From Polytrichum commune (taxonomy: Eukaryota > Streptophyta > Polytrichopsida > Polytrichales > Polytrichaceae), in assembly GCA_950295325.1 (NCBI GenBank), contig OX485804.1, positions 3,596,001 through 3,660,000 on the forward strand: a DNA stretch of 64,000 bases, read 5' to 3'. The notes beneath the pieces were generated by a model, which was given only the letters and a program-made list of their open reading frames with translations, did no database searches and was not told the origin of the DNA. The position numbers and the translations under genes were made by a program. This document shows, one piece after another, positions 1,263 to 50,624 of the stretch (position 1 is its first letter; each line of letters starts with the position of its first letter).

Positions 1263-1267
1263 GACAT

Positions 1268-2885: not shown

Positions 2886-2889
2886 TCCA

Positions 2890-6066: not shown

Positions 6067-6222
6067 TGTATATAGGTCTCAATTTACCCTCAGATTCGAG
6101 TACTCTGGACACAAATTATCCTCAATTGCTCGATGATGCAGCAACGCAAACAGATCTTCTGTTTGAAGAACCTCTCGGTACCTAAGTATTTAAAATTGGA
6201 TGTCAGGTTTCTGTAAGCATTA

Positions 6223-6275
6223 CAACAACAGGAACAGCAACAGCAACAACAGCAACAACAACAACAACAACAATT
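6223..6275. repeat. CAA/CAG trinucleotide microsatellite
   Basis: ACAACAACAGGAACAGCAAC followed by CAA/CAG units, about 160-210 bp upstream of the AP2/ERF start codon. It is probably in the promoter or 5' UTR. On the gene's own strand it reads as TTG/CTG repeats. Confidence 0.85.
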
Positions 6276-7082: not shown

Positions 7083-7262
7083 GATGTCCCGGGAGATTTT
7101 GGGACGTAATCGGTCGAGATCCTCAACCCTAAACCGGTTACATGTTGACGTCTTTCGGTCCTTCATCATGAATTTGAGGAATATTCTCTAAGTTCCTCTG
7201 AATTGATCGGTAACTTTCTTGAAGTCTTGAACTTTCAACCGGTTCATCTGTAATTACCATTC
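7083..7262 (+). repeat. dispersed repeat family A, copy 3
   Basis: Starts at ATGTCCCGGGAGATTTTGGG and carries the TAAACCGGTTACATGTTGAC and CAACCGGTTCATCTGTAATTA blocks shared with the other family A copies. It is uninterrupted where the 14-kb copy carries a 147-bp insertion. Confidence 0.7.
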
Positions 7263-8409
7263 ATTGTTCTGCTTCATAGGAGCTTCTCTCCCCTCTTTCA
7301 TTTATTAGATGATTGACTCCGGAATTAGCTTCACAAGTCTCAAATCAGTCTAAAGAGACCCACTTGAGATGAATCAATCACAATCTATAGGGGTCAAATT
7401 TTTAGCAGACCCCTTTTACATGGGGACTTGAATTATTGCACATGAGGTGAGTGAATCGTACCTCTCATTTGAAGGGAAAATAATAAATATAAATATAAAA
7501 TAAAATAAAATAACATGATCATGTGTTAAAGGTTTGTGTATCTTATGTGGTTGTTGTGATTCGATCTTAATTGAGCACCTAACATATATGAGTGGTTTGT
7601 GGTGAGGTTTGCAATTAAAATTGAGCTCTAAAAGGACATGTGCTTTAGGATGAGATCGGACAACGTGTTGAAAATATAGACACCATTCTAAATTCAATAG
7701 TGAACATGATTGGGAGGGTTTACGTGATTGTTCGAGGCGGTTTTATTTGAGGGGGGAAGGGGGGAAGGTATCAATACACACGCACTCCTATTAATCATAA
7801 CTAAATCAATGGAAAGTCCAATGTTCAATCTGATTTGAAATTCAATTGATCTTGAAGCATTGTAGATTTGCAAAGTCAACACAAATTTCCAAATGCCACA
7901 CACAAAGCCTACAATGCACAGTATCAACATAGGTGTTGAAAGTAGGATGCAGGTGACCAAGTTGTGTCGATAACTACCTCAAAACCTAGTAATGATGTAT
8001 GATCAATAACAAGTGGACAACCGAAAAAAACAAAAACAAAAATAAACAAACCAAATAACATGATACACCCACATGACATTGCGTACCTTAGATTCTTATA
8101 TTTCATGCAGGCCCTCTCAATCAAAATGTTGTGGAATAGAAAGTGGCCTTGAAGGTAAGCTAATGTGGGCCACAGTACTTGTGACTATAGTGTACGACCA
8201 AGCCTATGGAGCAGGTATGTAAGTGACTGCCGCCGTCACCAGTGTCACCATAGAGACAAAAGCCTTACCAATCGGTCTTTGTGGATGAAAAGGTAGACTC
8301 ATCCATCATGGATGAAAGGTAGCAACAACTGAATATTGTATTTCGTGCCGCCCGATCTATTTGTCTTGCTCGAAACTAATTGTAAACCGCCACTGTAGTG
8401 TCACCAACA
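7263..8409. other. AT-rich gene-free stretch
   Basis: Contains a short AAATA/TAAAA microsatellite near 7478-7515. A segment at 7680-7735 (CATTCTAAATTCAATAGT) recurs at 21450-21500. No gene seen. Confidence 0.45.
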
Positions 8410-8595
8410 CTAAAATGTACATTGTTGCAATTACTGTCACTTCCTAAGTGATTTTTCATCCAAATTACAATCATTCGTGATAATGTTTCATTATAGACAT
8501 GTTAGGATGCAGAATATACCAAACTTTGTTTCCATAGTTGACATGGTTTTCATCTAAATTTCAATCATCCATGACAGTACTTGTAAACTCATTCA
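8410..8595 (-). repeat. dispersed repeat family G, copy 1
   Basis: In reverse complement this aligns with 19905-20070 over about 165 bp, roughly 75 percent by eye. Shared blocks include TACTGTCATGGA, AAGTTTGGTATA, CATCCTAACA and ATTTGGATGAAAA. Non-coding. Confidence 0.65.
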
Positions 8596-11373
8596 TGAGA
8601 AGTGTCATTAGAAAAAGTTGCCATAGTGACATCAAATACCATGCATTGACACTACTAAATCTAGTGTAGTATTTGTGTTATTTTAGAAGCCTCTTATAGG
8701 GTGAGGGCCGATTCATGGGACTGACATCATTCGATCTGGATCCCATTAGATAAATTTGAAGTTTCTTATGTAATTTTAGCAATCTATTCATGGTCCTCAA
8801 ATTATTAAATAATAAACAACTAAAAATCACATGTTAAAGTCTAATGATTTTTATAAAAAAAAAATTTGTATTCTCACCTTCCCGCCAATGGATGCGTTTA
8901 TTTAGACACCACGAAGTCTTAGCCAAGTCTTATTAACCAGGTTGATGTACATGTAAGGTATGTTACTTTCTTGTAGCCATGCAAGTTAGAATTCTCAGAG
9001 TTTTGGCTTAAGCTTCATGGTTTCCATGGAAACTCATCCACCCATCATCCATAGGAAGGTGAGAACGCAACTAAGCCATTCTTTAACATGAAAATTTTGC
9101 AATTTTTATTCTTTTAATTATAATATTGGCACCATAAATGTGGAAACAGTCTATTGAAATTTGGTGGGAATGAACCAGCCTTCAACCCAAAAGGAAATTG
9201 CCTTTTACTAGGGTCCCTTTGAATCCATAATGAATGATTTTACCTATACACCATGAAATGGGCCCCTCCAGAGCCACACCAATTTGTCCTATTAGTGCAG
9301 GTGACCATTTGAAATTTTATGTTGCTATAACATTTTGCTTAGAATATCTATATTATTGCGTAAATTCTTTCGTATTTCTTGATGTGCATATTAGATATGT
9401 ATGTGATCTGGGCTAATAGAGATATGCTCGGTAAAATGTTAGAGCTCGTTAGCTCATCATGCGTATACATTAAAGTTGGGTGAAACTTTCAAGACCTCCT
9501 CTTTTCACCTCTCAAACTTTGAGAGAATTTAAAATAAGGCATTCGCATGGGACCCACTGTCTAAAGTCCTAGATCGACCTATGCGCAGCTAGTTTGGCAC
9601 ATCCATCTTAATACGACAAGTCGGAAAGCCGGTTTTTAGTAACCCAACTTCACTCTTTGTGTATGACGATTCAAGCATTGAGTAAACTTGAACGACTTTT
9701 GTATAAATTCTCATAAACTTAGGGTTTGGGACTAAACCCGTGGTTTCATCTACTTTACTTTACAAATAACTCTATAAATCATATGAAAAGTGGATGCCGA
9801 ACGAAATTATGCACATATATATTCCTTACATAGATGATGGCCCACCACTTTTAACAACTCTTGGAAACAAGATTGTCATCTTGATGTCCGGGGTGTGGAC
9901 TTGTGTCGGAAAAAGTGTGAAGGTGGAGCCTTAGACCAGCCTGACTTTGGCCGGGCTCTTGTTTTTTAAGCTTATTTTTGTGGCTTTGAAGATGTGATTT
10001 TCTCCAAAGCGGTCGTGGCCAATTGGTGCTAGGCAAAGTCGAAGGTCCACCTAGCTATTAGGGTGGGAAGGGAAAGGGAGGAAATGGAAAGGAGAGGAGG
10101 AATATTACTTAGTACCCACACCCGCGTTGCATTTCAACAAAGATTCAACGCAAAGTCGACATATTTCAACTCAAACTTTTCAATGGCTCACGAAAATGAT
10201 ACGGTGCATGTAAGTACAAACATAGAAATAGAATTAAAAACACATATATCAAAGTTGCAGAAGTCTCAAGTGCATAGCGAGGCCCGCATTGGCAAAATAC
10301 CCCCCCTCGGTAACTAAAATTTTATTGCTCGCATGGGCATTCCAATGACCTTGGAATGACCTTGGAACTTCCGCATCATCCTTGCATCACATTCTTCGGA
10401 AGCGTGTACCTTCGTTTACAAGAATAAGCATCACCTTGGTTATTCTTGAAAAAATTTCATTGTTTTTCGTCTTCAATCTAAAGAATATACATATAAACCT
10501 TAAGGGGGGCAATGTCCTTGAACTTTGGAGAATCCAAGGTATTGATGTGTGAAGGAAATTTTTTATTCATCTACGGTGGTTGGGTTGGGTCGATTAAGGA
10601 AAGGAAAAAGGGTTAGTAAACATCTTGTTCAAGAATGCTACGTGATGTTGAGGGCAATTCAACCCCTATCACCAACATATTCTATGATCAACCACTTGTT
10701 TGACGAAACCAACTCTATTTTTAAAATTCATGAACAAAATTTAAGCCTCAACAGTCGCAAAGTGTAAGGTTCTCAAGTTGGAGGAGCTTGTGAAACTATT
10801 ATTTGTTTCAAAATAAGGATGACATGATGGACGAGGACCCTCATTGGGAAAATAAAAATAAATTAAAAACATGTTGTGCAAATATATGTATTTTAATAAT
10901 TTAATTTTTTAGATTTAGAGTTCATTTGCCTATCTTAAAAGTGTCTCTCACAATGAGCTTGAATGTCTTTTTGGAAGCATGTTTGGTTTGGGATGTTGCT
11001 CACTCTACTAAATATGGTTGATTTTAGAATGGGAAACACCCACAGGCAAGAGAGTTTGCTTTCTCACTCAAATCTTATTGACTTTCTACAAGCTTCAAAA
11101 TCATTTCAAAGCATCGTTCCTATTCAAATTAGAGAAAAATCAAATGGGATTTGCACCGATGTATTCTTGAAACCTAGAATTTTTTGAATGCCGTGTGGGG
11201 ACCCAAATGAAGTCATGTTGTGCCTCCATGGTGCTTCTCTTTTATAAAGAGAGTCCATTGAACTCTCACAAACAAAAAAGGGTTAAGTATGACTTTGGAG
11301 ATCAAAAGCACGGTACTAAAGTAGGCATATCCAGAACCATGACATAACCTACAGACAAATAAATAAATAAATA
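8596..11373. other. gene-free stretch
   Basis: AT-rich, with only short frames and no recognisable domain. No transposon termini were identified. Confidence 0.4.
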
Positions 11374-22324: not shown

Positions 22325-22498
22325 TCATTCATCCGACATTAAAACATTGTAATAGTAAATAGTAAACAATAAATATCTCACAATGTACAACAAAAAATAA
22401 AAAATAAAAAGCATAAAATAAATACTAAACAACAAATATAAATACTAAATACTAAATAGTAGATAATAAATAATAAATAGTAAAGAGGAATAGTAGGT
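22325..22498. repeat. A/T-rich degenerate TAAATA/ATAGTA simple repeat
   Basis: Runs of AATAGTAAATA, AAAATAAAAA and ACTAAATACTAAATAGTA, very similar in wording to 29625-29930 on the other side of the Gypsy element at 22499-29640. Confidence 0.75.
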
Positions 22499-23045
22499 TG
22501 TCGTATAAATAGCGATCATGTGTCATTGCAACTCGAGTACCAACCGCCATTAATAAACAACACTAAAACATAGCAAAGTTACATAAACAACACACCTCGA
22601 CAAAGAAGGAAGAGAGTCAAACCCTTGCAAAAGCTTTAATTCTCTCTTCAAATGCACACAATAAGTCAAGCTATCTCTTACTTCACCACGGGAGAATCCA
22701 AGAGTATAAGAAAGGGGAGAAGAACTCAAGATTTATTGCAAAAACATGCAATCTTCACCTCACACAAGCTCTCTTCACACACTCACTCACAAGACTTGAC
22801 TTGGCAAGAATATCAAGTCAAGAAAGAGGCTCCTCACTTAGGAGCCTCCCTCTCTACATCTAAGATTCATTCATCTAAATCTAAATGAATGAAACCCAAC
22901 GGATAAGGTGCAGCCGCCGACGCCGCATATCGTGACAGTTGTCGTGTAAATAATGATCGTGTGTCACTGCAGCTCGAGTACCAACCACCACTAATAAAAA
23001 ATACTAAAACATAGCAAAATCACACATAAACAATACACCTCGACA
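22499..23045 (-). repeat. 3' LTR of the minus-strand Gypsy element
   Basis: On the minus strand it starts TGTCGAGGTGT at 23045, right after a purine-rich AAGGAGGGGCA, and ends TATACGACA at 22499, giving 5-bp terminal TGTCG/CGACA. It contains a direct duplication of about 105 bp (22499-22602 and 22940-23045), each copy itself bounded by TG and CA. Between these, an AATAAA on the minus strand is a candidate polyadenylation signal. An alternative is two tandem short terminal repeats (TRIM-like). No partner LTR was found at the right end, so a TSD cannot be tested. Confidence 0.6.
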
Positions 23046-23056: not shown

Positions 23057-23393
23057 AGCTGACTATGGAGTCCCGCCAAACAACTAGGACCAATGTCAAT
23101 CTAAAGGTCATGGATAATGAAAGATTGCTCTGCAACCAACTAGTGTGGTGAACATCATTCCAAAGAACTGTAGGTTGGGTGTAATATGAGCCTCATTTTT
23201 AATCGCCTCTGATGTTTGGCCATTAGATTCCAAAGAATTAATTCCACCGTCTTATGTTTGATTGTGTTTCTAATCTATAACTCATCATTTTCCATTTGGA
23301 CAGAGACAAGATGACGAAAACCACACAAGATCATTAAGTACGATTGGTGGAAACACCAAGTACTGAAGATCATCGACAGCGAGGACAACTCCA

Positions 23394-23755
23394 CTATCCA
23401 GATGGTAGAAAAGTCAAGGGTGGCCTCAAGCATGTTATGTGCCAACCACGTTGACACTGATCACACAAGGGTATAGTAGCTGCTTTTTTCTTCTCTCCAT
23501 ACACAAAACATGGAAAACCCTCTAGTACGACGGCCGGTTCAAGATGAACTGTACCCTTAATGGGTAGATGACATGGGGCACAATTTTTGGAATGCTCGCG
23601 ACATTCCTTGCCTTCCAACAATAACAAACCACTCGGCAACACCTTCTTCACCCAAATGATAGTGCGCCCTGCCCTGACATCCAATGTTGTAGGCGCCTCA
23701 TGTTGGAGATAAACATGATCCCCCTGTCAGAATCTCCGCAACTGAGGTCGGTAAG
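23394..23755 (-). pseudogene. Gypsy integrase C-terminal part with PHD-like finger (fragment)
   Basis: Minus-strand frame continuing the integrase after the hAT insertion. At the start the codons for AYRPQLRRF follow directly from the left flank, then a stop, then QGDHVYLQ. The distal part carries CFVYG, a spacer, CDQCQRGWH and CLRPPL, the wording of a PHD zinc finger. One of the first Cys pair is Tyr, so it is a damaged finger. PHD modules read histone H3 tails; in a retroelement one could steer integration to chromatin (inference). It is followed by about 340 bp of non-coding sequence and the LTR. Confidence 0.7.
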
Positions 23756-24547
23756 CAGGGTTGTCTATTGTGTCGTGACGGAGGCTAATCCCGACATAAT
23801 GTCGTGGCGTCACGACATGTATCTGTCACGACATTATGCCGGATGCCGTCTTTATCCTGACGAACTTGAATTTTACCGTATTTTTTTGTGTAATTACATT
23901 ACCCCAATCAGGACACGTAGGATTTACGATGTCCACGTATGGTGCCATGTTAGCAAAGTAGAGGTAAAGTGGGGAAAAAAATTACTAGCGCCCGTCCCCC
24001 CCCCCCCCGTTCCCCCCGCTCCCTACGTTCCCCTCCCCCATCCGGCCCCCCCCCCCAATCCGGCACCCGGCCCCCCCCCCCCATCCGAACCCGCCCTCCC
24101 CCCCCATCCGAACCCGCCCTCCCCCCCCAACCAATCCGACCCCCCCCCTAATCCGAACCCCCTCCCCCCCCCCAATCCGAACCCCAATCCGGCCCCCATC
24201 CGTACCCCATCCGGCGTTCCCCCCGTCCGCATCCGTTCCCGCCCCCGTCCCCGTCCGCTCCGTTCCCCTCCCCCCCACACCCTCATTTGTCATATTTTAC
24301 TACTTTGATTTTAACATAATGATAAACACAAAGGCAAAATGATTTACCTGGCAAGGGAAATATACACATCCACGTCGGATTTTTTTGCCACATTGGATGC
24401 CACCTTGGCAAGAAGGTAAGTATTTTACCCACCCTACTAGCTTCCCCCTAGTATGACCCTACGTGGACCCTATTATGTCGTGACGGAGGGGTCCGCCCCG
24501 ACACGACACGTCATGACGGTGGCAGGACGTCGCGATAGACAACCCTG
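23756..24547. mobile_element. 792-bp non-autonomous hAT transposon
   Basis: Perfect 13-bp terminal inverted repeats, CAGGGTTGTCTAT and ATAGACAACCCTG, with a perfect 8-bp target-site duplication TCGGTAAG at 23748-23755 and 24548-24555. CAGGG termini and 8-bp duplications define the hAT superfamily. Both subterminal regions are rich in GTCGTGACGG/CGTCACGAC motifs, as expected for transposase binding sites. There is no transposase; the middle is a C-rich tract. It lies inside the integrase of the Gypsy pseudogene, and removing it restores a continuous frame across the joint. Confidence 0.92.
23993..24285. repeat. extreme C-rich strand-asymmetric tract
   Basis: About 290 bp on the plus strand made of C runs of 4-12 broken by ATCCG, AATCCG and AACCCG. 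G occurs almost only in CG or CCGG contexts. The minus strand is correspondingly G-rich, with many runs of four or more G and clear G-quadruplex potential. It lies within the hAT element and makes long proline-rich or glycine-rich frames by composition alone. Confidence 0.9.
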
Positions 24548-25367
24548 TCGGTAAGCACCACTGCAAATGTATGCATAACGCAATGTGTCATGGTGCTGAG
24601 CAATGGACAAATTCTCTATGGCCATAGGCATGGCCCTCTGGAAGAATTGAGCCCACTCCTGCAAACACTCTGTCCAAATGTTTGGGTTATCCAAATCCAT
24701 GACATGAGCTAATTTCTCCCGAATAAAAGTCGGGAGTACAGACTCACGTCCATACAACAATTAATATGGGTTGTAAGACGCCAAAGAGGCATGCCTACTA
24801 AATTAATAGCCCATAGCAATCCAAGGTAACATAAGACTCCCAATCCCGGTGGCTCCCTCGAAGTAATCCAAACTTCCTCAAGCCACGCTTGATTATCTGA
24901 ACAACCCGTTCAGCCAAACCATCAACCTCCGGATGATCCCGAGAGGTGGTGCGGTGATCTATGAGCGCTTTAATGCACAACTCCTCAAAAACACCGAGGA
25001 ACTCCTTCCCTTGATCCGTCAATATCTTAGCCGGTACTCCAAAACGTGCCAACACACGATCCAAAAAGGCGGCCGTGGCCAACTCTGCAAATTTTTGACG
25101 TAGAGCAACAAGTTCAATTCACTTGCTAAAATGCTCCACCATCACCAACACGTACTTTGCTTCACGTAGTGTGGCAACCAACGGTCTTGCAAAGTCCAAC
25201 GACCAACGGTAGCCTAATCCAAGTTTCTCGTACACTTGTCGCACCAAGGACGCCCTCTGATCCGGCCTAGGGACGATACGCTTTGTCCCATCCGGCCACA
25301 ATCGAAATAACAAACCATTCTCCCAACGGAACCTTATTAAACGATCTCCAATCCTATCCCTCTCCAT
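24473..25367 (-). pseudogene. Gypsy integrase (degenerate)
   Basis: Minus-strand pieces of the DDE integrase core. SLDFARPLV holds the first Asp (about 25210), ILTDQGKEF the second (about 25015) and DHPEVDGLAERVVQ the Glu (about 24910). Downstream LLYGRES / PTFIREKLAHV and YAYICSGAY wording is the usual C-terminal stretch. The upstream HHCC zinc-binding domain is missing: the frame jumps from VRQVYEKLG straight to LGYRWSLDF, so about 50 residues have been deleted. The core has stops and frame breaks, and the hAT interrupts it at 24547. Confidence 0.85.
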
Positions 25368-25568
25368 TGCCGAGGTAGACGAAGGAAAAGTCCTTTGCTG
25401 AAGCTTATGTAATACGGGAAAATCCTCTCATATATCCGCAATAGCTTAAGGTCGATCAGTCTCATCATCCGAGCCCTGTATCGGAACTTCAACAGCCATA
25501 CCAAAAAAAAAAATGAGATAAGCAGCCGCGTGCAAACCTGGAACCGTCTCCCAATCACAATCTACATG

Positions 25569-25859
25569 CTACTTGGCCCCAGTCAAGTCCTCATCCGAAG
25601 GACTTGGATTGCGTGAGAGTCCATCTACATTCAAGTTGGTAATCCCAACACGGTGCACCACCTCAAAGTCATACTCCTGGCGCAACAAAGCCCACTTGGC
25701 GAGCTTGCCAATAAGCTTATTTGACTCCATGAGCCACCGTAAGGACTGATGGTCAGTCACCAAAGTAAAACGTTGACCATAAAGATATGGCCGGAAATGA
25801 ATAACAGCCCATACCGCCGCCAATGTTTCTCCCTCGTAGGACGAATAATTGGCCTCCAC
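25569..25859 (-). pseudogene. Gypsy RNase H domain (degenerate)
   Basis: NYSSYEGETLAAVWAV, LVTDHQSLRWLM and EVVHRVGITNLNVDGLSRNP are the standard Gypsy RNase H blocks on the minus strand. The upstream part carrying the first catalytic residues is broken across frames between 25860 and 26050. Confidence 0.85.
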
Positions 25860-26052
25860 TATATTATTGCTTCACGAAGCGTAAGCAACAACATACTTCC
25901 GGCCAAAATCATCCTTCTAAGTGAATGCAAACCCAATGAATTTCAGTCCGTATGCAACTGGAAGGATTTGGAGGCATCTAGACGTCGAAGCATTGGAGCC
26001 ACACCCAATTTCTGCTTCAATGTCTCAAACGCATGTTGTTGCTCACGACCCC

Positions 26053-26892
26053 TCAAGTCCAAGGTTGGTCATTGTTTATGAAAATGGTGAGAGGCTTGGC
26101 GATCAAACTAAAGTTCTTGACGAATCGACGATAATAATTCACCAAGCCCAAGAAAGCATGAAGTCTCGGCACATCGACTGGTACCGGGATCTTCCGCAAA
26201 GCATCCACCTTAGCTTGTTGAACCCCAAGACCTCCTAGAATAATCATATGACCTAGATATGCTAGTCGGTCACGGAAAAACTTGCACTTGCCATGGTGCA
26301 AGCGTAATCTTCACCGCCACAACCGCTCAAAAACGGCTTGCAGATGCCTTACATGCTCCTGTGGTGTTTTGCTGAAAATGATCACGTCATCAATGTAATA
26401 CCGAGCAAAGGGCAAGCCAGAGAAGACTTGGTCCATCATTCTCTAAAACTCAGCAAACGCATTCTTGAGTCCAAATGAAAGAAACTTCCAATGATACAGT
26501 TGATCCTTCCCATCATAATCAACTCCCCAAAATACGGTTTTCACTTGATCTCCCGAAAGTAATGGGAGTTGGTGATAGCGGGATCTCAAGTCTAGGGTGC
26601 AAAAGACTTGAGAAAATCCGATGGCATCAAACAACTCCTCGGGGATTAGCATGGGATACCGATCCAACTTGGTTTTCCGATTAACTGAACAGTAATCCCC
26701 GCACATTTACTTCTTTGTCCAATTTCCAAATATATCATTCTTTGATGGCATGATCGTAGGACAAACATACTCCCCGTTGGAAAGTTCGGTTAGCTTTGTT
26801 GCTAAAAGCTCTCGACAGCGAGCATGAACGCCAATCCGCTCGGAAACAATGAGCCTATAAGGTCTCCGAAAAATGGGATGGTCATCCTCCAA
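26053..26892 (-). pseudogene. Gypsy reverse transcriptase (degenerate)
   Basis: Starts with EDDHPIFRRPYRLIVSERIG and continues through MPSKNDIFGNWTKK, MCGDYCSVNRKTKLDRYP, LDLRSRYHQLPLL and WKFLSFGLKNAFAEF. The catalytic box reads YYIDD, with codons at 26386-26400, in a frame next to the longest open pieces. The last part, KFFRDRLAYLGHMI and AFLGLVNYYRRFVKNF, leads into RNase H. Several stops and frameshifts are present, so it is inactive. Confidence 0.88.
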
Positions 26893-27375
26893 TTGAATGT
26901 GGATGGGATTTCCTTTATAACCTTCAAGATCCTAAAGGCTAAAAGCAAAACACCTCCGGTACGAGCAAATAAACGCTCGCACTTTCCATGCCTTAGCACC
27001 AGTGAGATGAAGGCCTAATTCCAATGGTCAATCATCAAACTTTGTGGTCTCCTTCTCCACCTAAGGGGAGCCACCTGATGCTGACACGGACTTTAACTGC
27101 GACTAAGAGGAGGGGGCATTAACCATGCCCCCAACCTCCGTGCTAGCAATAGAATCCGTCCCCTGTTCATCACCACCAATGTATGATTATGAAACCACTA
27201 CCGGAGGTGAAGAAGCCAAAGCAGTATAAACCCATTGAGCTCGAAGCTCCTCCATCACCTGCTATTCGAATCGAAATATTTGTTCAGCTTCTCCAATCAT
27301 GATCTCAATTTCCTTCTCTATGGATGTGGACCGATGTGCCCCCTGACCAAAGTCCTCTGCCTCCAGAGACAACAA

Positions 27376-28420
27376 CTAATCATCATGATGCCATTGCAAT
27401 GCAAGGCATAAACCAACAATCCACACCAGGGTATGAAGATCCATGGTTTGGCCTAACACAAAACGTCGTTGGCCCTCAGAAAAGCCAGAATTTGCGGTGG
27501 TGCTAGTGCGAAATCCCATGGCACGCTCCCGTTTGTCAGCCAATAATTCGGTGTGGGTTTTGGTGTGAGCATCCCACACCATACCCGGCCCCCAATCGCA
27601 AAATGTGAATAATTGTGGAAACGTTATGAACGTGGGGAAGGCCCTCCGTGGTGTCCCCACTTTGTTGACCAATGCCAACGGGAGTAAATCATCTCGAACA
27701 ACCGGCAAAGAGGTCTGGTTTGGATCCAAGATGTCATCCATCTTCTTATCAAAAGATGGAGGCACTACAGAAAATGTTGCAACTAAAGTGGATAACGGTG
27801 CGAGGTTGGTCCAAATCCACTGAGGTCGGTGGGAATAAGAACCAACGCTCGCGGCATCCACAAAAATGGGATTTCCAAGGTGTTGACAAACATAATGTCG
27901 GCCTTCCAAAACCTTGGCCCGAGAGTCTCCCAACAGAGGTACATTCTCAAAGATATACCCTCGAGGGGAATGTTGGTGGGCAAACCATCACTACATGAGC
28001 CAGATGAGGTCTCAGAATATACTAGACCTGGGATCCTCTAGATCTCGGCCTGCTCCAGCACGGGAGTGGCTCTGGCATGGCCATCCCGCGATCACATATC
28101 CACCGGACCCAAGTGTCGTAAATCTGCCTCACTGAGAAGTGTAACATCACGAGGGAGACGTGCAAAACACCCATGAATGGCAGTCGGGTGTAACTACTAT
28201 GGGTATAACACCATCAACTAGTCGAAATGGTGACGAGCCACACGGGTGGACACTTGACTGTTGTCCACATAGACATACCGTCGAACCGTGAGTCCAGCGT
28301 CCAATACGGCCGTCAATCCTGTTCCAATGCCCCCAAACACTTCCACCAAAGTAATCCCCTTGTCTGGTGGGCGCCACAAAATGGGTGTACCAATACCGAT
28401 GGGCTATCCAATATGACCGG
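27376..28420 (-). pseudogene. retrotransposon-encoded cytosine-5 DNA methyltransferase (DNMT3-like, degenerate)
   Basis: Located between the protease-like and RT segments on the minus strand. Visible methyltransferase motifs: motif I as LVEVFGGIGTGL (about 28316-28350, SAM binding) followed by YVYVDNSQ (motif II); motif IV as IAGWPCQSH (about 28066-28092), with the catalytic Cys of PCQ; motif VI as FENV (about 27940-27951); HRPQWIWTNL (about 27804-27835), resembling the HRARYFWGN block of DNMT3-type enzymes; and a C-terminal ERAMGF...EGQRRFVLGQ block (27451-27550), like the ERxFGF...ARQxLLGxS end of DNMT3/DRM proteins. A stop after ARHHFD and frame changes near motif IV show it is dead. A functional ancestor would transfer methyl groups to cytosine in DNA; here it would be part of the retroelement polyprotein. 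Confidence 0.85.
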
Positions 28421-28743
28421 TGTCGTAGAACCAAGAGAGAGAATAATGTCCTCACATCGTCGGAGTAGCTCTGTGAAATCGCGCCAAGGAAGAAGAGAGG
28501 ATCCTTGGGATGACGTACCAATGCACTTTGAGGTGCCATCTCCTGTTGATCCTCAACACTCCCCATAAATGCCAAACACTCCTCCAATAATGAAGAACCA
28601 TAGGGCAATGTGCCAATAAAAACACCATACCTAAAAACCATGAATAATGCTACTATGGTAGTGGCGGCCGCAAATGCCACAGGAAGAAATTCGTTGCGGC
28701 CATCTCTAGCCGACCAACCTAGTTGGATCCACGCCTCCTCAAT
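28421..28743 (-). pseudogene. Gypsy polyprotein linker between protease and methyltransferase
   Basis: Minus-strand frame with VAFAAATTIVALFMVFRYG, SLLEECLAFMGS, EDQQEMAPQS and RHPKDPL wording, then frame loss before methyltransferase motif I. No catalytic domain recognised. It appears to be the spacer joining the protease region to the methyltransferase in this element. Confidence 0.6.
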
Positions 28744-29073
28744 CTAGTTGTCCAAACCAAAACCGAGGGGGTAAAATGCTTGTTGACCAACTAAAATGTC
28801 ATAGTTGGTCGCATCTGTTACCGTACACCTGAGAAAAAGAGGTGCGGGTGGATCTTCAAGCTTCACTTGGAAGCTACGATGTAGTGACTCCTGAGTATAA
28901 CCAGTGGCTGCTCCACGTGGCCAATGGATGTGACTATGGTAAATGGGCAAGGAACCAAGTTGTCGGCCGTCAACCGCATCGACTACGCAAGCTTTTTGCC
29001 AATCATAACACACTAGGAAGCAAGTCAAATAATGTTGCCCGAGCCCGACTAACCACTGAAACGCCGGAATCAT
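28744..29073 (-). pseudogene. retropepsin-like region of the Gypsy polyprotein
   Basis: Minus-strand frame containing RSFQVKLEDPPAP, FLRCTVTDATNYDILVGQQA and YPLGFGLDN. The YDILVGQ block resembles the C-terminal half of retroelement aspartic proteases; the DSG-type catalytic loop is not clearly preserved. Upstream (29074-29640) only scattered matches in broken frames (e.g. NDSGV, NGQELT) are seen. Confidence 0.6.
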
Positions 29074-29624
29074 TCATCATACGTACGACGCTAGGTCGAA
29101 TGCCTTGATTATCGCAAGCAGGTCAAACAACTACATCTGAGAGATAAGTTGCGTCTGCAGAGGATGGTGATTCATAAGATGATGTTAGCTCTTGGCCATT
29201 CGAGGCGTGTGCGTCAAAAGACGCAATGGCCTCCGCTGCAAGCTTCGTTGTTGTCTGGCCGTTTCTTTAGATCCTCCGTGGTAGGAAGGTCAGCGTTGGC
29301 TTGAGCTACAGTTGAGTAGAAGACGGGGGTGCCTTTTCTTCCAAAATCCTACTTGCTAGGTGAAAAACCTTAGCTAGTTGGATGTCGGATGACGACCACT
29401 CCATCGTTGTGAGCAAAGTTATGTATAACACTTTGGATGCCAAAGTGTACACCACGTTGGTCGCCGAATTCGAAGCCTCCAAGTTCGAATTACGACCACT
29501 GACAGATTGGACAACATCCGCCCATCCAGAAGACAATGACAGACGTGTCTGACAAATCTGATCCGCAGGACCATTGTCTCGAGCTCGTAAGTTGTCTACA
29601 TACTGTCTATTAATTATTATTACC

Positions 29625-30938: not shown

Positions 30939-31922
30939 GGAGGATGTTAAGTTCCCCCGAACTTCTCGGGGGAGGTGGATTCGGGCAGAGCAGCCGACTA
31001 TCCAAAAAAACCATAATTTTTAGACCTGACCGAAATTTTTTGCCCGCCCGCCCGATTTCGAAAAAATCATGGCCCTTGCATTCTTGAAGGCCACTTATCC
31101 ACAAAGCCCATATTGAGTGCACTTCACCTTTAAGATCCAAAATCCAATATGTATATTCACTTCCATTGAATAAATAAGCAATTGACTAGGATTTCATTTT
31201 CAAAGTGAAACCGCCAATAAAGCATGTAATTAACTTGGAAGTCAAAAATATTACAAAACCCTCATTACATTGAGGTTATAATTTCTGTGACTTACCATTG
31301 AAAAGGTCTTAATTAGGCTTAATTAATTTGGTAAGCATGCTTTCTGATTTAATTGGGCTTAATTAAAATTAATGAGGATTCATTAGAATTAATCATATTC
31401 AATCACACCTAATTAGTTAAATGCGTATGAAAACTTTGTGAAAGTAGAGGGTATTAACTAAACAATTATTATTAATATTTAACATATAAAAAACAAATCA
31501 CTAATTTTAGTTCCATTCTAGAATGACAAAGACCCTTTCAATGGTATGTCACAAAAATTATAACCTTAGTGCTAATGAGGGTTTTGTAATATTTTTGACT
31601 TCCAAGTTAAATACATGCTTTATTGGCAGTTTCACTTTGAAAATGAAATCCCAACCATTTTCTTATTTACTTAATAAAAGTGAACATATATTTTGGATTT
31701 TGGACCTTGAGTGAAGTGCACTCAATATAGGATTTGTGGATAAGTGGCCTTTAAGAATGCAAGGGCCATGGTTTTTTCGAAATTGGGTGGGCGGGCGGGC
31801 ATGCAACAATTTTTGGTTGGGTCTAGAAAATTTGGATTTTCTAGACGGGCGGATGCCCCTACCCGAATCTACCTCCCCTAAAAAGTTCATGGGGGGGGGG
31901 GTGGGGGAACTTAATGTCCTCC
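30939..31922. mobile_element. Mutator-like foldback element (non-autonomous)
   Basis: 984-bp element with long terminal inverted repeats of about 380-400 bp (30939-31315 against 31525-31922). The ends read GGAGGATGTTAAGTTCCCCC and, in reverse complement on the right, GGAGGACATTAAGTTCCCCC. It is flanked by a perfect 9-bp duplication GATCACGTG at 30930-30938 and 31923-31931. Nine-bp duplications with long TIRs starting in GG are the hallmark of Mutator-like elements. The AT-rich loop (about 31316-31524, TTAATTA-rich) has no transposase. A G run near 31890-31906 lies in the right TIR. Confidence 0.88.
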
Positions 31923-32379: not shown

Positions 32380-35300
32380 TTTAGAGACCCACGGTTAGTT
32401 TTCATGTAGATTGCTTGGAGCACTTTTGGGCCAACCTCCTCCGAGGGAGCCTAAAAATGCCAGACAAGTCCTTCGGTGAGGGTGGCTTGCACTTGCAGGT
32501 GCCCAAGTCGAACCTGGGTGATAGGTGTAGAAGGTGAATGCTTAGATTTTTGGAGGGGGATTGAAATTACATTTTTAGTACCTCCTAAAATTGGACCTTA
32601 GTTTTTACTATTGTGGCTTTAAACTTCACTAATCCATTTCATACCTAGTTTTAACCTAGATCTACAACCTAGTGTAAGTGCAGACGCATCAAACTTGGAA
32701 CTAAAACAATCCTAACCTATGAATTGAGATGACTTTGGCACACACCAACTGGATGTGACTCAAACCGCTCAATGAACAGAATAGCGACGGTTTGATCGAC
32801 CATTTAATTCTTTCCTACTTTCTTATTTTATTATATTTAAATATTCTAAGTGAGGGGATTTTGGCTTAAGTCTCACCCTTAATACAACTTTCTTTTTACT
32901 TAGTTAATTTTGATTACACATCCTATTTTACTACATTCATATATTAGGCATCACCCCTTATATGATTGGTGCATCCTTTAGCTTCGAACCTTCTAGGGCC
33001 TCGTACAGGTCCCTTAAAGGTTGAGTGACATCTCAAACCCTTCGGACTTCAACGGTCCAAAGGGTGGTGTCACTCTACCGAATTAAGTTTCCAATTTGTG
33101 TTTTTTTGCCAACAAGGGTTCACGATATATATTTTTTATTTTTTTATCGTTAAGTGTGTATACACTGAATAGATCCCGAAATGCAACTTAATAGGACTAG
33201 GGTGACGGACAACCCGTAGTACAATCTTCATAAATTGGGACCATTACTCCCAATCCATTGGGCCAACAACATAATAGTGGATTCGCGGGTCATTAATTCC
33301 ATCTTTCCACCAACAACATTCAGAGTGGTCGTGTTGGTGATTAATCCGACATACCACACACTGAACTTGCTAATGAATAAAACTACTACTACAAAACATA
33401 CCAAGGGGCTCAACAACAATGCAATTGGGTACCCCCTTGGCGGTTTAGTGGTCAAGCCACTTGACCTTACGAGATAGGTAAGTGGATTTAGGGATGCATA
33501 CATTGGCCGCGCTCCCTCCAACCCTAAATGAATGGCTAGGATTAGTTCGTTTACCTCAATTCTCCTCGGTTGATTGGGCTCGATGTAGGCCGACTTGCTA
33601 CCTCCTTCTTTGCTCCATTTCCCAGGCATTGACCTTGTCTCTTTCCTTGTAACTAGTTTGATTGTAAGGCTTACATTAGTTAACAATTAAAATATCAATT
33701 GTTTCTTTTGCACTTTAATTTAGACCTTAACATAATAAATTTATTTAGTGCACGTCATTATCTTTCCAACGATCAAAAAATTACTTCAACCAGACAAAAA
33801 ATGCAAAAGTTATGAGGGTTGGAAGTGTGAGGTCGATTTAACCGATCCTTCCAACCCACCTATCCAACTTCCAACTTCAAAAACTTATAGCAAATTAATT
33901 ACTATTTTGATATGGGTTTTCCTTACACCATTGAAAAACTATCAACAAGATTCAATTAAGAAAAATATGATATTAACATGATAAGCTAAGATGAATCCAA
34001 CAAACTCCTTGGAACACAGCAGTCAACCAAGAAGTTTTAAACTATGTATCACGTCTTTACAAATTCGTATCTAATTAATTTTTATTCAAACCAAATTTTC
34101 TAAATAACCATAGAAATATATTTAACAAATATAATTAACAAATATAATTAACAAATATAATTAAGAATATATAAATAAGAAAAATATATTATCAGCAAGT
34201 TAAGCTAAGATGAATCCAGCAGACTCTCTGTAATGCAGTAGTCAACCAAGAAATCTCAAATTACATATCCCGCCTTCAAAAATTCACATCTAATTCAAAT
34301 CTTATTCAAATCAAAATTTCTAAACATCATTGGAAAGCTAGAAAACATATCTACTTGGGAAAAATATAACTTTCTAAAATTTTAACTTTTAGTGGGCTAG
34401 CAGGTCTGATCCAGCAACCGCTACTCAAAGAAACACCATGTCTTTCTATTCCATCTTTGAAAATTCATAACTAATTGTCATCTTAACCAAATTACAAATG
34501 GAAAATGGCTACAGATAGCTATAAAAAATCCTTATAAAGAAAAAATAATAAATATTTTATTTTAAATCATGAACTAAGCTTTCAGGACATTAGCAGTTGA
34601 GGTCTACAATGCCTCCACTTGCAATCCTACAATCCAACCTACCTCTACAAAACAAAAGAAGATTTTTTTTGTATTAACAAACACACATTCTAACTAGGAG
34701 AGATAGTAGAGTATTTTCTCAAGCCTTATTATTAGGCCATTGAGAATGCAAGATAGAAATTTTTCTAACTACATTGAAGCAGGGCTTCGCCCAAGCATTA
34801 GAGGAAGAATAATACTATAAAATTATGAGCCCAAAATGATGTTCACATGTGTTCTTAAGTCTTTGAGATAATTAGAAGTTATGTATTAACGGTTATTAAT
34901 TATTCATAAAAATATAAAAAGAATAAAGTGTGGTGTGGATTAAGTTTAGACATTAGGGGGTGTTGTGTGATTGTCTCAAGGTTTAAGTTCAATGAGGTAA
35001 CGCCTTGACTAGATGAGCATGGAGTAAGGTGAGGCGAGAAGGGATCCGCGGGTTAAATGCCTATATTAGGATCCACATTGTTGGTTTAGGAATCGAAGAA
35101 CCTTGTGGATGGGATAAGTTCCTACTTAGAAGGAGAATGTTAAGGGGTTGTGATTGGAGGTTCTAATCCTCTCACCCTATCCTTACTTCATGCCCTTTCC
35201 TCCTCTTTGCTATTTAAGACCTCGTTCTTCCCTCATTCATCCTCTCTTTCTTTCGTGCTCCATGGCACCCCACGTGTTATAAATGTAGATGCGTGGGAAG

Positions 35301-36904: not shown

Positions 36905-39900
36905 GGCTACTTGCCCACTTACCAACTCGATGGCGAAAAATTAGAAAAATTTCTAGGTTTCCCGTCGGAGCCACCTCAGCGAGAGGGTGGCAACCTCAAC
37001 CGGAAAAACCCCCGAGCCAAAATTTCGGGAAAGAGTTTGAAAAATGGAGCCGGTGGAGGAGGGGTCCAACCCTTTTGTGAGAGGGTTTAAAAACCCCTCG
37101 TTCCACCTTGTATACTCTCTCTTCCTCTAATGTTTGGGCGAAGCCCTGCGTCAATGTAGTTAGGAAAAAATCTTTTAGTATGCATTCTTAATGGCCTAAA
37201 GAAAGGCTTGAGAACCTCCTCTATTCTCTCTTCTACTTAGAATGTGTGTTTATTAACACACCAACAAAATTATTCCTTCTTTTGTAGAGGTAGGTTGGAT
37301 GGTAGAATTTTGAGTGGAGGCATTGTAGACCTCATCTGCCAATGCCCTGAAGGCTTAGTTCAGAAGCTAGAACAAGATACTTATCATTTTTCACTAAGAG
37401 AGATTTCCTATAGCTATCCATAGACATTTTCTATTTGTGATTTGGTTAAGATGACAATTAGTTATGGATTTTTAAAGATGGAGTAGAAAAACTGGGTGGT
37501 CTTGTGGGTATCGGCTGCTGGATCAGACCTGCGAGTCCAATAAGAATTTTAATTCTAAAAAGTTATATTTTTTCCAAGTATAACTTTTGTGTAGCTTTCC
37601 AAAATGGCTTAGAATATTTGATTTGAGCATGATTTGAATTAGATATGAATTGTGGAAGATGAGACACATAATTTGAGAACTTTTGGTTGACTGCTGCTTT
37701 ACAGAAAATCTGCTGGGTTCACTTCGGCTTACCTTTCTAATCACATATTTTTATCAAATACATCTTTTTAATATCTCTCCAGGGTCATATAGAACGTTTG
37801 ATTTGAGTAATATTTGAATTAGATATGAATTGTTGAAGGTGAGATACATAGCTTAAGTCTTCTTGATTGACTGCTGTGTTACAAGGAGTCTGCTGTATTT
37901 TTATTAGCTTAGCTTGCTAATGTCATAATTTTCTTAGTTAGAACTTGTTTATAGCTTTCCAATGGTATAAGGAAAGCCTATATCCAAGTAGTAAGGAATG
38001 TGCTATAAATTTTTGAAGTTAGAAATTATATAGGTGGGTTGGAAGGGTCGGTTGAATCGACCTCACACTTCCAACCCTCATAACTTTTGCATTTCTTATC
38101 TGATTAAAGTGATTTCTAGATCATTGGAAAGATAATTAGGTGCAATAAGTATTATATTATGCTTAAGATTAAATTACAGTGCAAAATAAATACTTTATAT
38201 TTGAATTATTAACTAAGGTACGCTTACTACCAAACTTGTCGCAACCCTTGGTAGCCCCCCCTTGACCATCTTGCCAATTTTCAATTCTAGCAAAGGTTAC
38301 GAGTGGCTAACCCTTCGCATACCGCCATGCTAATGGTTAGCTCCTCTAACCCCGGACCAATAGTTCATAGGAGGGAACCAACCCTCCTACTTTGCTTTCG
38401 GGACTCACCCCTTAATCGGTAACCCATTTCCCCAATGTGGACTTCCATCCATGGAAGTCCAATCCTATGTTGATCATCGCGTTGCCGGAGCAACACTACA
38501 ACAACCCGAACCATACTAGGCAACTATGGCCTCACAATAGGCCAAAGCCCATGGAGGCCTTGCCGTTCGGCCTCGGGTGGGTGAGGCCACACCACCTCAC
38601 CCATATAAGCCTCTAGGACTTCACGCGGGGCCCCTACCCCACCGTCAACCAACCTCTTGTCTCTCTACCAAGAGTTGGGGCCAAGTGGACATTTTCCTTT
38701 AGCTGCTGGGCCTAGAACCCCCCAGCAGCTTCAGACCATCATAACTTCCTTGTATGATGTCTGATCATAACAACCAACCACTCCATCTTCATCTACGTTT
38801 CACGTAGATGCCGATGGACTCCTCACTTGCCCCATTTGGGCAAGTTATGAGGACGTTATGCCTCTTTGAACCTTGGCAGTCCCGGGAGTCACTCCCAGGC
38901 ACTGCTGCACCAGGGCGCTGTCCCGGGACAGCGCCCCACTCAAATGGCCATAACTCCTAGCTCACACCTCCGATTGAGGTGTTCTTGAGCATTCTAGAAT
39001 CACCACGCTATGAGCTAGGCATAGCTCATGGCCTTACCCTCATGCTTCCTAGTCTCAGTGGGTGGGAGGCGTTCCCAACGCCCGGGGCCCTCACCCACAC
39101 TAGGATCACTTGGGCCCTCTCACCAATGGCGCCACAAGTCCCGGGTGTCACTCCGGGGTCCCCCTTGTGCCCATGGTGTTTCGGGCACTCCTTATGGGGA
39201 GGTGCGCGACAAAACTAATTACAAAGAAGGAGGCAAGGTCGACGCTCGGGAAGTGGAGCAAGGAAGGAGGTAGCGGCTCGGCCTACTTCAAGCCCAAATC
39301 AACTGAAGAGAATTGAAGTAAATTAACTAACCTTAGGCCTTCCATTTAGGGTTGGAGGGAGCGCGGCTAAGGTATGCATCTCTAAACCCAGTCACCTATC
39401 TCATAAGGTCAAGTGGCTTGACCACTTGACCGCCAAGGGAATACCCAACTCCATTGTTTTCGGGCCCCTTGGTATGTTTTGTGATAGTAGCTTCATTTAT
39501 TAGTAAGTTTCGTATGTGGCAAGTCAAATTAATCACCGACATAACCACCCTTAATGTTGTTGGTGGAAATGTGGAATTAATGACCTGCGAATCCACTATT
39601 ATGTTGTTGGCCCCATAGATTGGGAGTAATGGTCCTAATTTATGAAAATTGCGCAACAAGTTGAACCTACAGGTCGCCCGTCACCCTGGTCCCATTGAAT
39701 TGCATTTCGTGGTCTATCCAGTGTAAACACATTTAACAATCAAAACATACAAAATAAATCGTGAACCCTTGTTGGCAAGAGACCCGAATCAGAAACTTAA
39801 CTCGGTAGAGTGATACCACCCGTCGGATTGTTGAAGTCCGAAGGGTTTGAGATGTTACTCGGCCTTCAAAGGACCTGCACGAGGCCTTAGAAGGTTCCGA

Positions 39901-40508
39901 GGTAAGAGGTGCACCAACCAGGTAAGGGGTGATGCCTAATATGTGAATGTAGTGAAGTAGGAGGTGCAACCGAAATTAAATAATTAAGAAAGAATTTGTG
40001 TAAAGGGTGGAACTTAGGCCAAGTTCTCCCGCTTAGAAAACTAAATAAAACGTAGTAAAGAAATAGGAATAATTGAATGTTCCATCAAATTGTCGTTAGT
40101 CCGTTCATTGAACTTGGGTGATATGAGTCACACCCGGTTGGTGTGTATCATAACCATCCTAATTCACAAATTAGGATTGCCTTGGTTTCAAGGCTGGTGC
40201 GTCTGCGCGTAGAATAGGTTGTAGGTTAAGGTTAGAACTAGATATGAAATTGGTTACTGGAGTTTAGAGCCACACTAGTAAAAAACTAAGGCCCAACCTC
40301 CGGAGGTACTACGATGCATATTTAATCTCCCTTAAAAATCTAACTACTCACGTTATACACCTATCATCCGGGTTCGGCTTGGGCACCTGCAAGTGCAGGC
40401 CACCTTCACCGAAGGGCTTGTGTGATATTTTTAGGCTCCCTCGAAAGGGGGTGGCCCAAAAGTACCACATCCACCACCTTAACATGAAGCTACCGTGTTG
40501 GGTTTGGC
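36905..40508 (-). repeat. right arm of giant inverted repeat
   Basis: Partner of 32380-36480. With the solo LTR at 38237-39211 and its duplication removed, it is about 2.62 kb, nearly the same length as the left arm after the same correction. It holds the tandem units of about 185-220 bp (37540-37950: GAATTAGATATGAATTGT, TTGACTGCTG). Confidence 0.85.
38237..39211 (+). mobile_element. solo LTR, family LTR-B
   Basis: 975 bp beginning TGTCGCAACCC and ending GTGCGCGACA, with 6-bp terminal TGTCGC/GCGACA. Perfect 5-bp duplication AAACT at 38232-38236 and 39212-39216. No internal retrotransposon sequence is present, so it is a solo LTR from unequal recombination. A second copy is at 57292-58265 in the other orientation. 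The left arm of the inverted repeat (about 33655-33662) keeps the empty site. Short open frames in it are not protein-like. Confidence 0.9.
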
Positions 40509-46019: not shown

Positions 46020-46257
46020 TAGGTGTTTCTTTGTCTTTTGCTTTTGTTTGATGCAAGAGCATGTGACTTGAGTAATTTGAATGTTTAAGGGTCTATTTGA
46101 GAGCTTTGAAGGTGTTTATACTCCAAAAACATCTAACTTGAGAGGCTTGAGTGTTGAAGAATTTATGTGAGAGCATTGAAGGTGTTTAGATTCCAACAAC
46201 ATTTAACTTAAGAGGGTTAAGTATTGAGGAGTTTATTTGAGAGGTTTGGAGGTGTTT
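46020..46257 (+). repeat. 70-bp tandem array, left part
   Basis: Units at about 46020-46110 (diverged), 46111-46180 and 46181-46250, each GGTGTTTA...AACTTGAGAGG...GAGTGTTGA...TTTGAGAG. The fourth unit starts at 46251 and is cut after 7 bp by the Gypsy insertion; it resumes at 57078. Confidence 0.85.
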
Positions 46258-48060
46258 TGTGAGCCCAAAAGGGTGCCCACATTTAGTCTTAGACCCTTGA
46301 AACGTTAGTTGATGCACTTTGAAGTAGCATGTTACTTCACAAAAATATAAAAAGAGTGAAATGTTAGTCTTAGAAGTACCATGTTGTAAGAGGCTAGGAT
46401 GTGAGTTGTTATTGTGTTTTTACCTTCGGAAGGATTTGAGTGAATGAGGATAGGTAAGGAGAACTTGGATTGAGTAGTTAGTGAGTAGGCTAGTACAAAT
46501 GGATGGAAACAACCAAAGTGACTCAAGAGGCAAGTGCATTCGAATTGGGATGAATGGAGGATCACATGGAGCGCACAAGTGGACCACCTCATCATGGCCA
46601 CTTAATGGGGAAGGCCCAAGGAAGAATGCAAGGTGGAGGATAAGCAAATTCTCAAAGCACCAATCAAATCACGAGTTAAGCATCGTGGTTTGAATTAAGT
46701 GGTGAGCGACGATTTGGGAAAGTAAGGGGAGAAAGTTATGGCGGCGGAAAGCGAAGGAGGCTAAGTTTGGGTTGAAGCATCCCAAGTTTGGTAAAGTGTG
46801 GTAGGTAGAAAGCCAAGGCTAGTTAAATGTTCGAATTAGGATCCTTGTTGATCATTTGAGGGAGGAAGGCTTAGAAGATAGGATTGGCGCCTACTAAGTA
46901 GGAGGAAATCTCAAGGGCTTATCGTGAGCCTTGAGGGTGCTCACCCCCTCAAGCTTACTATATAATCCCTCATTCTTCCCTCACTCATCCTCTCTCTTTC
47001 CTTTGTGCTCCAAGGCACCCCACGAGTTATAAGTGTGGGTGTGGGAAGCCATATTGGAGCACATGTGTGTGCTTAGTTTTTAGTTTGAGAGCCAAGGCTT
47101 GTTAGCCTTGAAGAGGGCTTGACCTCTTGGTAGAATTAGTGTTGACGTGAAGGATTTTAAAGTTAATTCATGATTCCAATTTGTGGTACTTTAAGTTCAT
47201 GTTTTGAATACACGTGGTTGCAAGTTCCATGTTTAAGAGTTGAGCACTTGATGTTGTGATGAGTGCAAAAATATACTTGTGTGGATTAGTTAGTCTTAGT
47301 GAAGTTAGGAAATTCTCTCTCCCCCTCTCCTCTCTAGGATTTTAGGATTTTAGGATTAGAGAAGAATTGTGTGATTAGAAAGGGGTTGTTAGTAGAATTA
47401 GGGAAATTAGGTAGGAAGATTAGTTAAGGGCTTGAATAATTAGTGAGGTAGTTGGGGATTACAACTACAAAGTTGTGGGTTCATGAAGGACCTGGGTTTA
47501 TGAAGGACCTGGGTTTATGAAGGACCTGGGTTTGTTTAGTTAGAAGCTAAGGAGCTGGGTTCATGAAGGAGCTGGGTTTATGAAGGAGCTGGGTTTGTTT
47601 AGTTAGAAGCTAAGAAGCTGGGTTTATGAAGGAGCTAGGTTTATGAAGGAGCTAGGTTTATGTAATTAGAAAGTAAAGAGATGGGTTCATGAAGGAGCTT
47701 AGTAGATAGCCTACCTAATTAGCTCATAGACAAGTAGTTAGTTACATTATGCTAGTTAGTGTTATGGGTGGCTTTCACAAGTAAATGTATTTGAGATTGA
47801 CTATAGAGAATAGTGTTGTTTTTAACACTTGCATCCTCTCTTTAAAAATAAACCACGTGCACAACTTAATGGAGAATATGGAGCACTCTCGCGATGGCAA
47901 GACAAAGGAAGCAAAGACCAAAGTTAAATCCAAGACCACTTGAAGGGTGAACCTTGCACTATAGACTCATCCAAGTCCAAATCCAATACCGCGGAGGAAT
48001 GTGAGCCCAAACCCACTACTCGGACTACGGACGCTTAAGGGTGGGGGGTTTGGCCTCACA
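46258..48060 (+). repeat. 5' LTR
   Basis: Begins TGTGAGCCCAAAAGGGTGCC and ends GGTTTGGCCTCACA. A TATATAA at 46959-46965 is a candidate core promoter. Downstream there is a stem-loop TGTGCTCCAA...TTGGAGCACA and a hairpin CAAGGCT-TGTT-AGCCTTG. 47480-47700 is an 18-bp tandem array (TGAAGGAGCTGGGTTTAT). The first 12 bases TGTGAGCCCAAA recur at 48000-48011. Confidence 0.97.
46959..46965 (+). promoter_or_regulatory. candidate TATA box of the LTR promoter
   Basis: TATATAA followed by CT-rich sequence (CCCTCATTCTTCCCTCACTC). The same position in the two diverged solo LTRs reads TATTTAAG or TACTTAAG. The 3' LTR has the identical box at 55971-55977. Confidence 0.5.
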
Positions 48061-48061
48061 T

Positions 48062-48080
48062 AATTGGTGCGTCTGCCGGG
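48062..48080 (+). other. primer-binding site (putative)
   Basis: AATTGGTGCGTCTGCCGGGA directly follows the 5' LTR and has the TGGYGC...GCCGGGGA look of plant Gypsy primer sites. The matching tRNA was not identified. Confidence 0.55.
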
Positions 48081-50606: not shown

Positions 50607-50624
50607 CAACAAGCAAGGGATAAT

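Follow-up and report, generated by a model that had tools for sequence, protein, structure and literature searches.

The minus strand of the window, the whole 64,000-nucleotide stretch analysed here, carries a Ty3/Gypsy-type retrotransposon of a streptophyte, truncated at its 5' end and pseudogenised. The lineage of this element carries a DNMT3-type C5 cytosine methyltransferase and a C-terminal PHD finger as its own protein parts. That we are dealing with an element that has its own methyltransferase is close to certain, and we give a probability of about 0.7 to the explanation as a whole, in which the enzyme was kept by selection, a stop codon is read through, the element's cDNA is methylated and insertion is guided by the PHD finger. 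A sequence-only reading had already proposed a Gypsy element with a captured C5 methyltransferase, dead in this copy; profile matches and an intact relative, called L001 below, support that proposal.

A broken methyltransferase

A C5 cytosine methyltransferase, now broken, is encoded at 27376-28400 on the minus strand. From 28400 to 27376 one meets FGGIGTGL, YVDN, GWPCQ, FENV, HRPQWIWTN and EGQRRFVLGQ, which is the order of C5 cytosine methyltransferases. All the blocks named in the sequence-only reading are therefore present on the strand and in the order it gave, though they are spread over two frames: FGGIGTGL and YVDN lie in one, and the remaining four in the other. With this split and the internal stops, the window copy is dead.

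Profile searches bear out the claim of a C5 methyltransferase with significant matches. A single unjoined frame matches PF00145 (DNA_methylase) at 6.2e-6 (26.3 bits, cut-off 22, residues at 27916-28095), while neither the other methyltransferase frame nor a 203-residue open stretch matched Pfam by itself. When the region was read as a single protein through the frame change, with X in place of stops, DNA_methylase was matched at 4.4e-8 and the NCBIfam model dcm at 1.1e-7, the latter with 31.8 bits, under its curated cut-off of 100.65. The best solved relative in the PDB of this read-through protein is DNMT3A (1.3e-9).

An intact relative

Scanning the contigs of GTDB genomes with the reverse transcriptase (RT) piece of the window gave 30 pattern matches and three relatives. 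Two of these (L002 and L003) were set aside, having RT identities of 35% and 30% and no convincing methyltransferase match (best E 0.21). The third, L001 (CADCWO010000201.1, 9285 bases), is titled uncultured Synechococcales cyanobacterium, AVDCRST_MAG81, and its RT is 79.2% identical to that of the window over all 207 residues. We infer that L001 must be a eukaryotic retroelement inside a cyanobacterium-titled bin. Its contig ends overlap exactly by 127 bases, giving a closed circle, the pattern expected if identical ends of a repeat are joined during assembly. The occurrence of this circle (1-9285) in a cyanobacterial bin may be explained by a high-copy repeat that contaminated the bin, or by an extrachromosomal circle.

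The other scans added no relative of this kind. The window methyltransferase piece gave 50 pattern matches and no relatives in the GTDB genomes. In IMG/VR, no relatives emerged from the pattern matches obtained with the window methyltransferase (2), window 28147-28743 (1) or the window RT (6), and the L001 RT region gave neither pattern matches nor relatives. The sole IMG/VR relative, found with the L001 methyltransferase, is a C5 methylase on a viral contig (L004), which was rejected with motif IV only in common.

The coding part of L001 consists of two open reading frames in the same frame. The open frame of ORF1 covers bases 3 to 3491, with its start at the other end of the contig, from 8582, and contains two zinc knuckles, a protease match with the residues LDSGA (Asp_protease_2 7.8e-4, below cut-off) and, at its end, the methyltransferase (DNA_methylase 6.8e-12), one in-frame UAG before the RT. 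ORF2 (3492-6635) contains the RT, RNase H, the integrase zinc-binding domain and core, with D-D-35-E spacing, and the PHD finger. A pattern search found no initiator-tRNA primer site in L001, and a bacterial-code scan found no tRNAs in the window or in L001.

All six window pieces were found on L001 by tblastn, in the same order and on the same strand, which rejects a chance neighbourhood of a host gene and a transposon. The two halves of the methyltransferase are 63.2% identical over 87 residues and 55.1% over 245, the protease-side stretch 58.6% over 58, and the integrase piece 61.1%, across a deletion. On the minus strand of the window the order is methyltransferase, RT, RNase H and integrase core; in L001 it is complete from the protease on.

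Could a host DNMT3 gene or pseudogene simply lie beside, or be inserted into, an ordinary Gypsy element? The window copy, broken in several frames, could not by itself exclude an adjacent host DNMT3. However, L001 has the same order, with the frame open from the zinc knuckles through the methyltransferase, and a chimeric assembly of L001 is opposed by both the exact 127-base end overlap and the collinearity. The chance of such an arrangement is in our judgement nearly negligible. The methyltransferase and the RT belong to one element, as had been claimed, and are not separate host genes, since L001 carries both.

Extent and decay of the window copy

The element, whose surviving parts are collected in the table, is longer than the sequence-only reading had made it: homology to L001 spans 29587 down to 22665, the repeats extend to 22497, and a PHD finger is additionally present. 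As for the protease-like part described there, no protease profile matched in the window (Pfam), although the region can be aligned with the protease side of L001.

Features of the window, with positions numbered from its first letter; the element is listed in its own 5' to 3' direction and the AP2/ERF gene last
Feature	Position	Strand	Evidence
Surviving stretch nearest the 5' end, homologous to residues 328-507 of L001 ORF1 (flanked there by zinc knuckles and protease)	29045..29587	-	tblastn 32.7%
Protease-side region and spacer before methyltransferase	28495..29009	-	tblastn L001 ORF1 529-568 (55%), 563-700 (50%)
DNMT3-type C5 cytosine methyltransferase, disrupted by stops and by one or more frame changes	27376..28400	-	PF00145, DNMT3A, L001 alignment
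Linker between methyltransferase and RT, holding the place aligned to the L001 UAG (not a stop here)	27001..27375	-	dN/dS 0.43
Pre-RT segment and reverse transcriptase	26050..27099	-	RVT_1 3.8e-20; L001 ORF2 1-350, 75% identity
RNase H	25560..26069	-	RT_RNaseH 1.4e-23; L001 77.8% over 126 residues
Integrase core	24838..25379	-	rve 3.6e-12
Integrase C-terminal part	24548..24838	-	tblastn L001 ORF2 811-907, 69%
Nested 789-base insertion, not part of the element	23758..24546	.	terminal inverted repeats GGGTTGTCTAT, 11-base target duplication
Integrase tail and PHD finger (PHD match 23376-23492)	23364..23757	-	PF00628; tblastn L001 ORF2 895-1038, 72%
Repeat B, first copy	22938..23045	-	86.1% identical to 22497-22602
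Segment A between the B copies, 335 bases	22603..22937	-	L001 7228-7390 aligns to 22665-22822
Repeat B, second copy; probable 3' end of element	22497..22602	-	repeat and L001 comparison
Single open AP2/ERF gene, 715 residues	3931-6078	-	AP2 domain vs Arabidopsis ERF1 4.9e-29, 48/64 residues identical

At the 5' side, residues 1-327 of L001 ORF1 have no match in the window (tblastn, E up to 1e-3), so that the N-terminal part of gag is missing from this copy, as is the 5' terminal repeat; the stretch that survives nearest to it has, joined with the neighbouring pieces, a tblastn E of 1e-169. The two best solved relatives of the RT are 4ol8 (RT/RNase H, 4.8e-43) and Ty3-G Gag-Pol (3.6e-42). About 176 bases of L001, comprising most of the integrase zinc-binding domain, are missing in the window at 25216-25228 (blastn breakpoints), and the H2C2 zinc-binding domain, found in L001 at 9.6e-18, is without a Pfam match in the window pieces. 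The PHD finger remains beyond the nested insertion (PF00628 3.2e-7, 30.7 bits, cut-off 24), and the tblastn segment covering it together with the integrase tail is reported from 23786. The insertion itself, between the integrase and the PHD finger, has C/G-rich repeats inside. A weak match in the neighbouring frame of the PHD region and a T-antigen match at 28750-29600 (E 0.0095, below cut-off) were both taken as chance. Rfam at gathering thresholds gave no match in the window.

Stops in the coding frame were compared with 500 dinucleotide shuffles. The RT frame has 4, with 14.4 expected and no shuffle as low; the 3' part of the methyltransferase (27376-28128) also has 4, with 9.0 expected (21 of 500 shuffles as low). 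At 28147-28743 there is 1, with 7.3 expected (4 of 500 as low), a signal that comes out too strong, since in the L001 alignment the coding frame shifts between 28495 and 28382. The linker gives no signal (5 stops, 5.6 expected, 256 of 500 as low). The CpG observed/expected ratio of 0.75 in the element, against 0.59 in the window, shows no special depletion and so gives no ground for claiming decay driven by methylation.

No LTR pair was found around the coding part in the window, and what is seen is a 3' end of the form B-A-B, with two copies of repeat B (108 alignment columns) around segment A. In L001 repeat B is single, at 6955-7063 (best score 78, next 29; shuffles mean 28.8, maximum 37). 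From these repeats one may picture an element of the plan A - coding - B - A - B that has lost its 5' end in the window and collapsed to a circle in L001; the 5' A of this plan would fall in the lost part of the window copy. A DIRS retrotransposon was considered and rejected: a DDE integrase core is present instead of a tyrosine recombinase.

Selection

Codons of the window copy and L001 were compared with stops and gaps excluded. The dN/dS ratios, which are rough because synonymous sites are near saturation (pS 0.57-0.74), are 0.11 for both methyltransferase blocks and for the PHD side, 0.07 for the RT and RNase H, 0.05 for the integrase, 0.14 for the protease side, 0.25 for the spacer before the methyltransferase and 0.43 for the linker. 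In the 3' block of the methyltransferase, 36, 21 and 61% of codon positions 1, 2 and 3 differ. These values argue that the methyltransferase was very probably under purifying selection while the lineage was alive, and they suggest that the PHD finger, too, was kept by selection.

Type and origin of the enzyme

The sequence-only reading had likened the last two blocks to DNMT3/DRM enzymes, and of the two it is DNMT3 that stands. The motif order, I, IV, VI, VIII, X, is unrearranged, which speaks against a DRM, where VI-X come before I-V, and the relative scores point in the same direction. For the read-through window piece the PDB bit scores are 40.9 for DNMT3A, 35.2 for DNMT3B, 23.2 for 4onj (deposited under the title 'DNA methyltransferase', and which we take to be a DRM) and 19.5 for HaeIII. 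A profile of L001 and the window pieces gives DNMT3A 44.8, DNMT3B 41.2, HaeIII 28.2, 4onj 24.9, HhaI 23.4, DRM2 19.8 and DNMT2 19.5, the match to DRM2 being limited to the first motifs; DRM was rejected. The enzyme is thus of the unrearranged DNMT3 type, with the DNMT3s as its best relatives.

Capture of a bacterial or phage C5 methylase, instead of a eukaryotic DNMT3, has to be weighed here. With L001 alone the lead of DNMT3A is smaller, as HaeIII (27.8 bits) and HhaI (27.3) trail it (37.0) by only about 9 bits, and a phage methylase has 22 of 37 residues in common around motif IV. However, the bacterial matches lie mainly around that motif, whereas the DNMT3 matches run from motif I to VIII, and with the window piece the gap widens to DNMT3A 40.9 against HaeIII 19.5. 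We regard such a capture as very unlikely.

Catalysis in these enzymes depends on the Cys of motif IV, the Glu of motif VI and the Arg-x-Arg of motif VIII. L001 keeps all of them; the window copy keeps PCQ and FENV and is without the second Arg of motif VIII. No DUF3444 occurs among the Pfam matches of L001 ORF1 and ORF2 up to E 0.1, the domain described as the partner of the methyltransferase in plant DNMT3 (PMC6453930). According to the same study, DNMT3 occurs in non-flowering streptophytes but is absent from angiosperms, which would make a non-flowering donor natural.

The UAG boundary and the PHD finger

The boundary between ORF1 and ORF2 of L001 reads TAG CAA TCA, a sequence that fits UAG-CAR-YYA, the context of stop-codon readthrough in tobacco mosaic virus. 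Only 2 of the 190 TAGs on both strands of L001 precede CARYYA, and one of the two is the ORF boundary. At the place in the window aligned to this boundary the six bases CAGTTA fit the pattern; the codon that pairs with the UAG in the alignment does not encode a stop, and the stop may therefore be particular to L001. Judging from this context, readthrough would rather probably yield much Gag-protease-methyltransferase and, in small amount, a longer product that continues through RT, RNase H, integrase and PHD finger.

Among the best 60 of 96 matches of the L001 PHD finger, the leading ones are CHD4, Cph2, PHF12, UHRF1, an MLL3 homologue, KMT2D and KDM5B/A. Several PHD fingers of these types read the unmodified H3 tail, as does the ADD domain of animal DNMT3. 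Chromoviruses carry a chromodomain after the integrase, and so likewise place a chromatin-reader module there; the module of the window element and L001 is a PHD finger and not a chromodomain. Assignment to the chromoviruses was rejected, ORF2 of L001 having the PHD finger (4.3e-10) and no chromodomain up to E 0.1.

Known systems and the host

A Dnmt3 inside a Gypsy element has been published for Klebsormidium (de Mendoza et al. 2018, PMC5890265). This element, KnitGypsy-Dnmt3 of Klebsormidium nitens, is the closest published one, and has in common with the window element and L001 the Gypsy type, an unrearranged Dnmt3 in the coding region and purifying selection. Its repeats are arranged as in DIRS elements (PMC5890265), and the window shows a B-A-B 3' end. 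Its enzyme lies in the Pol ORF (PMC5890265), whereas that of L001 precedes the UAG, on the Gag side; and a PHD finger follows the integrase in the window and L001, whereas the string PHD is absent from the main text of that paper. SymbioDIRS-Dnmt3 of Symbiodinium is a second retroelement-encoded Dnmt3, which methylates CG in yeast, but it belongs to the DIRS class with a tyrosine recombinase (PMC5890265), in place of the DDE integrase seen here.

Other comparisons are more distant. Plant DNMT3 likewise has an unrearranged methyltransferase domain (Yaari et al. 2019, PMC6453930), but it is a host gene with DUF3444, for which the L001 ORFs have no match. Ty3/Gypsy elements of orchids have similarly captured a nucleic-acid-modifying enzyme, in that case an m6A RNA demethylase domain and not a DNA methyltransferase (PMC9289625). 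According to a 2025 survey, DNMT3 members have been reported in retrotransposons of streptophytes and dinoflagellates, and the LTR elements among these are given there as Copia (PMC12344493). Among the extra ORFs and domains of plant LTR elements covered in the accessible text of PMC7264820 and PMC9289625 there is no DNMT. Within the literature searched, bioRxiv and most subscription papers being outside its scope, the accessible texts describe no such land-plant element (PMC9033089, PMC13398078, PMC12477816, PMC9998398 and PMC10538959 included).

Compared with the published elements, what appears new here is the probable land-plant host, the PHD finger on the same element and the methyltransferase on the Gag side of the UAG. 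The claim that the capture was made in a land-plant genome is likely to be right, given the ERF gene in the window. The element could also be a close cousin of KnitGypsy-Dnmt3 in a charophyte host, which would not extend the known host range; the published DIRS-like repeats of that element and the B-A-B end of the window fit together. Against this stand the ERF-type AP2 gene and the GC content of the window, about 42%, both of which we take to point to land plants, and we consider a charophyte host unlikely.

The window contains other features as well. A second Gypsy element (46255-57073, plus strand) encodes gag, protease, RT, RNase H and integrase in ORFs at 48981-55208, which lie between repeats that are 99.945% identical over 1807 bases, marking a very young insertion; its ORFs have no methyltransferase match. 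At 30954-31895 there is a large palindrome-like foldback, 77% identical to its own reverse complement and possibly an inverted-repeat transposon, and 32422-34808 and 37120-40463 form an inverted pair, 77-80% identical. A piece of an NLI/FCP1-like phosphatase lies at 61858-62682 on the minus strand (Pfam NIF 4.6e-11).

What the element would do with its enzyme

How might such an element use a methyltransferase? As part of the Gag product, the enzyme would be packaged with Gag. If the proposal of de Mendoza et al. and their yeast assays (PMC5890265) are taken as a model, the packaged enzyme might methylate the element's own double-stranded cDNA before integration, a step to which we give somewhat less than an even chance; the enzyme of K. 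nitens had no activity in yeast, a result that the authors call inconclusive (PMC5890265). Arriving already methylated, a new copy would resemble host DNA. The PHD finger on the integrase would in turn steer insertion by the state of histone H3, probably unmethylated H3K4, and this guidance we hold to be an evenly balanced possibility.

The methyltransferase may instead have been kept for another use: for instance, it might methylate RNA, bind DNA, defend against other elements or viruses, or hold back the spread of the element itself. RNA methylation (for LINE elements) and reduced transposition are listed as options by de Mendoza et al. (PMC5890265), and antiviral defence has been proposed in a review (PMC6338049). 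However, the enzyme is closest to the DNA-acting DNMT3 type (DNMT3A 44.8 bits, DNMT2 19.5), and its catalytic motifs are intact in L001, which leaves these other uses on the unlikely side, if not far out. Returning to methylation of the element's own cDNA, its boldest form is a land-plant Gypsy lineage in which, now or until recently, a Gag-packaged DNMT3 writes methylation onto the cDNA, the PHD finger tethers integration, new copies arrive silenced, and the lineage extends over charophytes and land plants by descent or transfer. This version we offer as speculative and would sooner bet against.

A 2019 review stated that land-plant transposons are without DNA methylases and built an argument on that absence (PMC6338049); if the land-plant host is confirmed, the window copy contradicts it. 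L001, for its part, could be taken straight to the laboratory, as its methyltransferase domain is open and its PHD finger and UAG boundary are there to be tested. DNA methylation is a main weapon of plants against transposons, and an element that encodes both a writer of methylation and a histone reader would turn that weapon into a part of its own life cycle.
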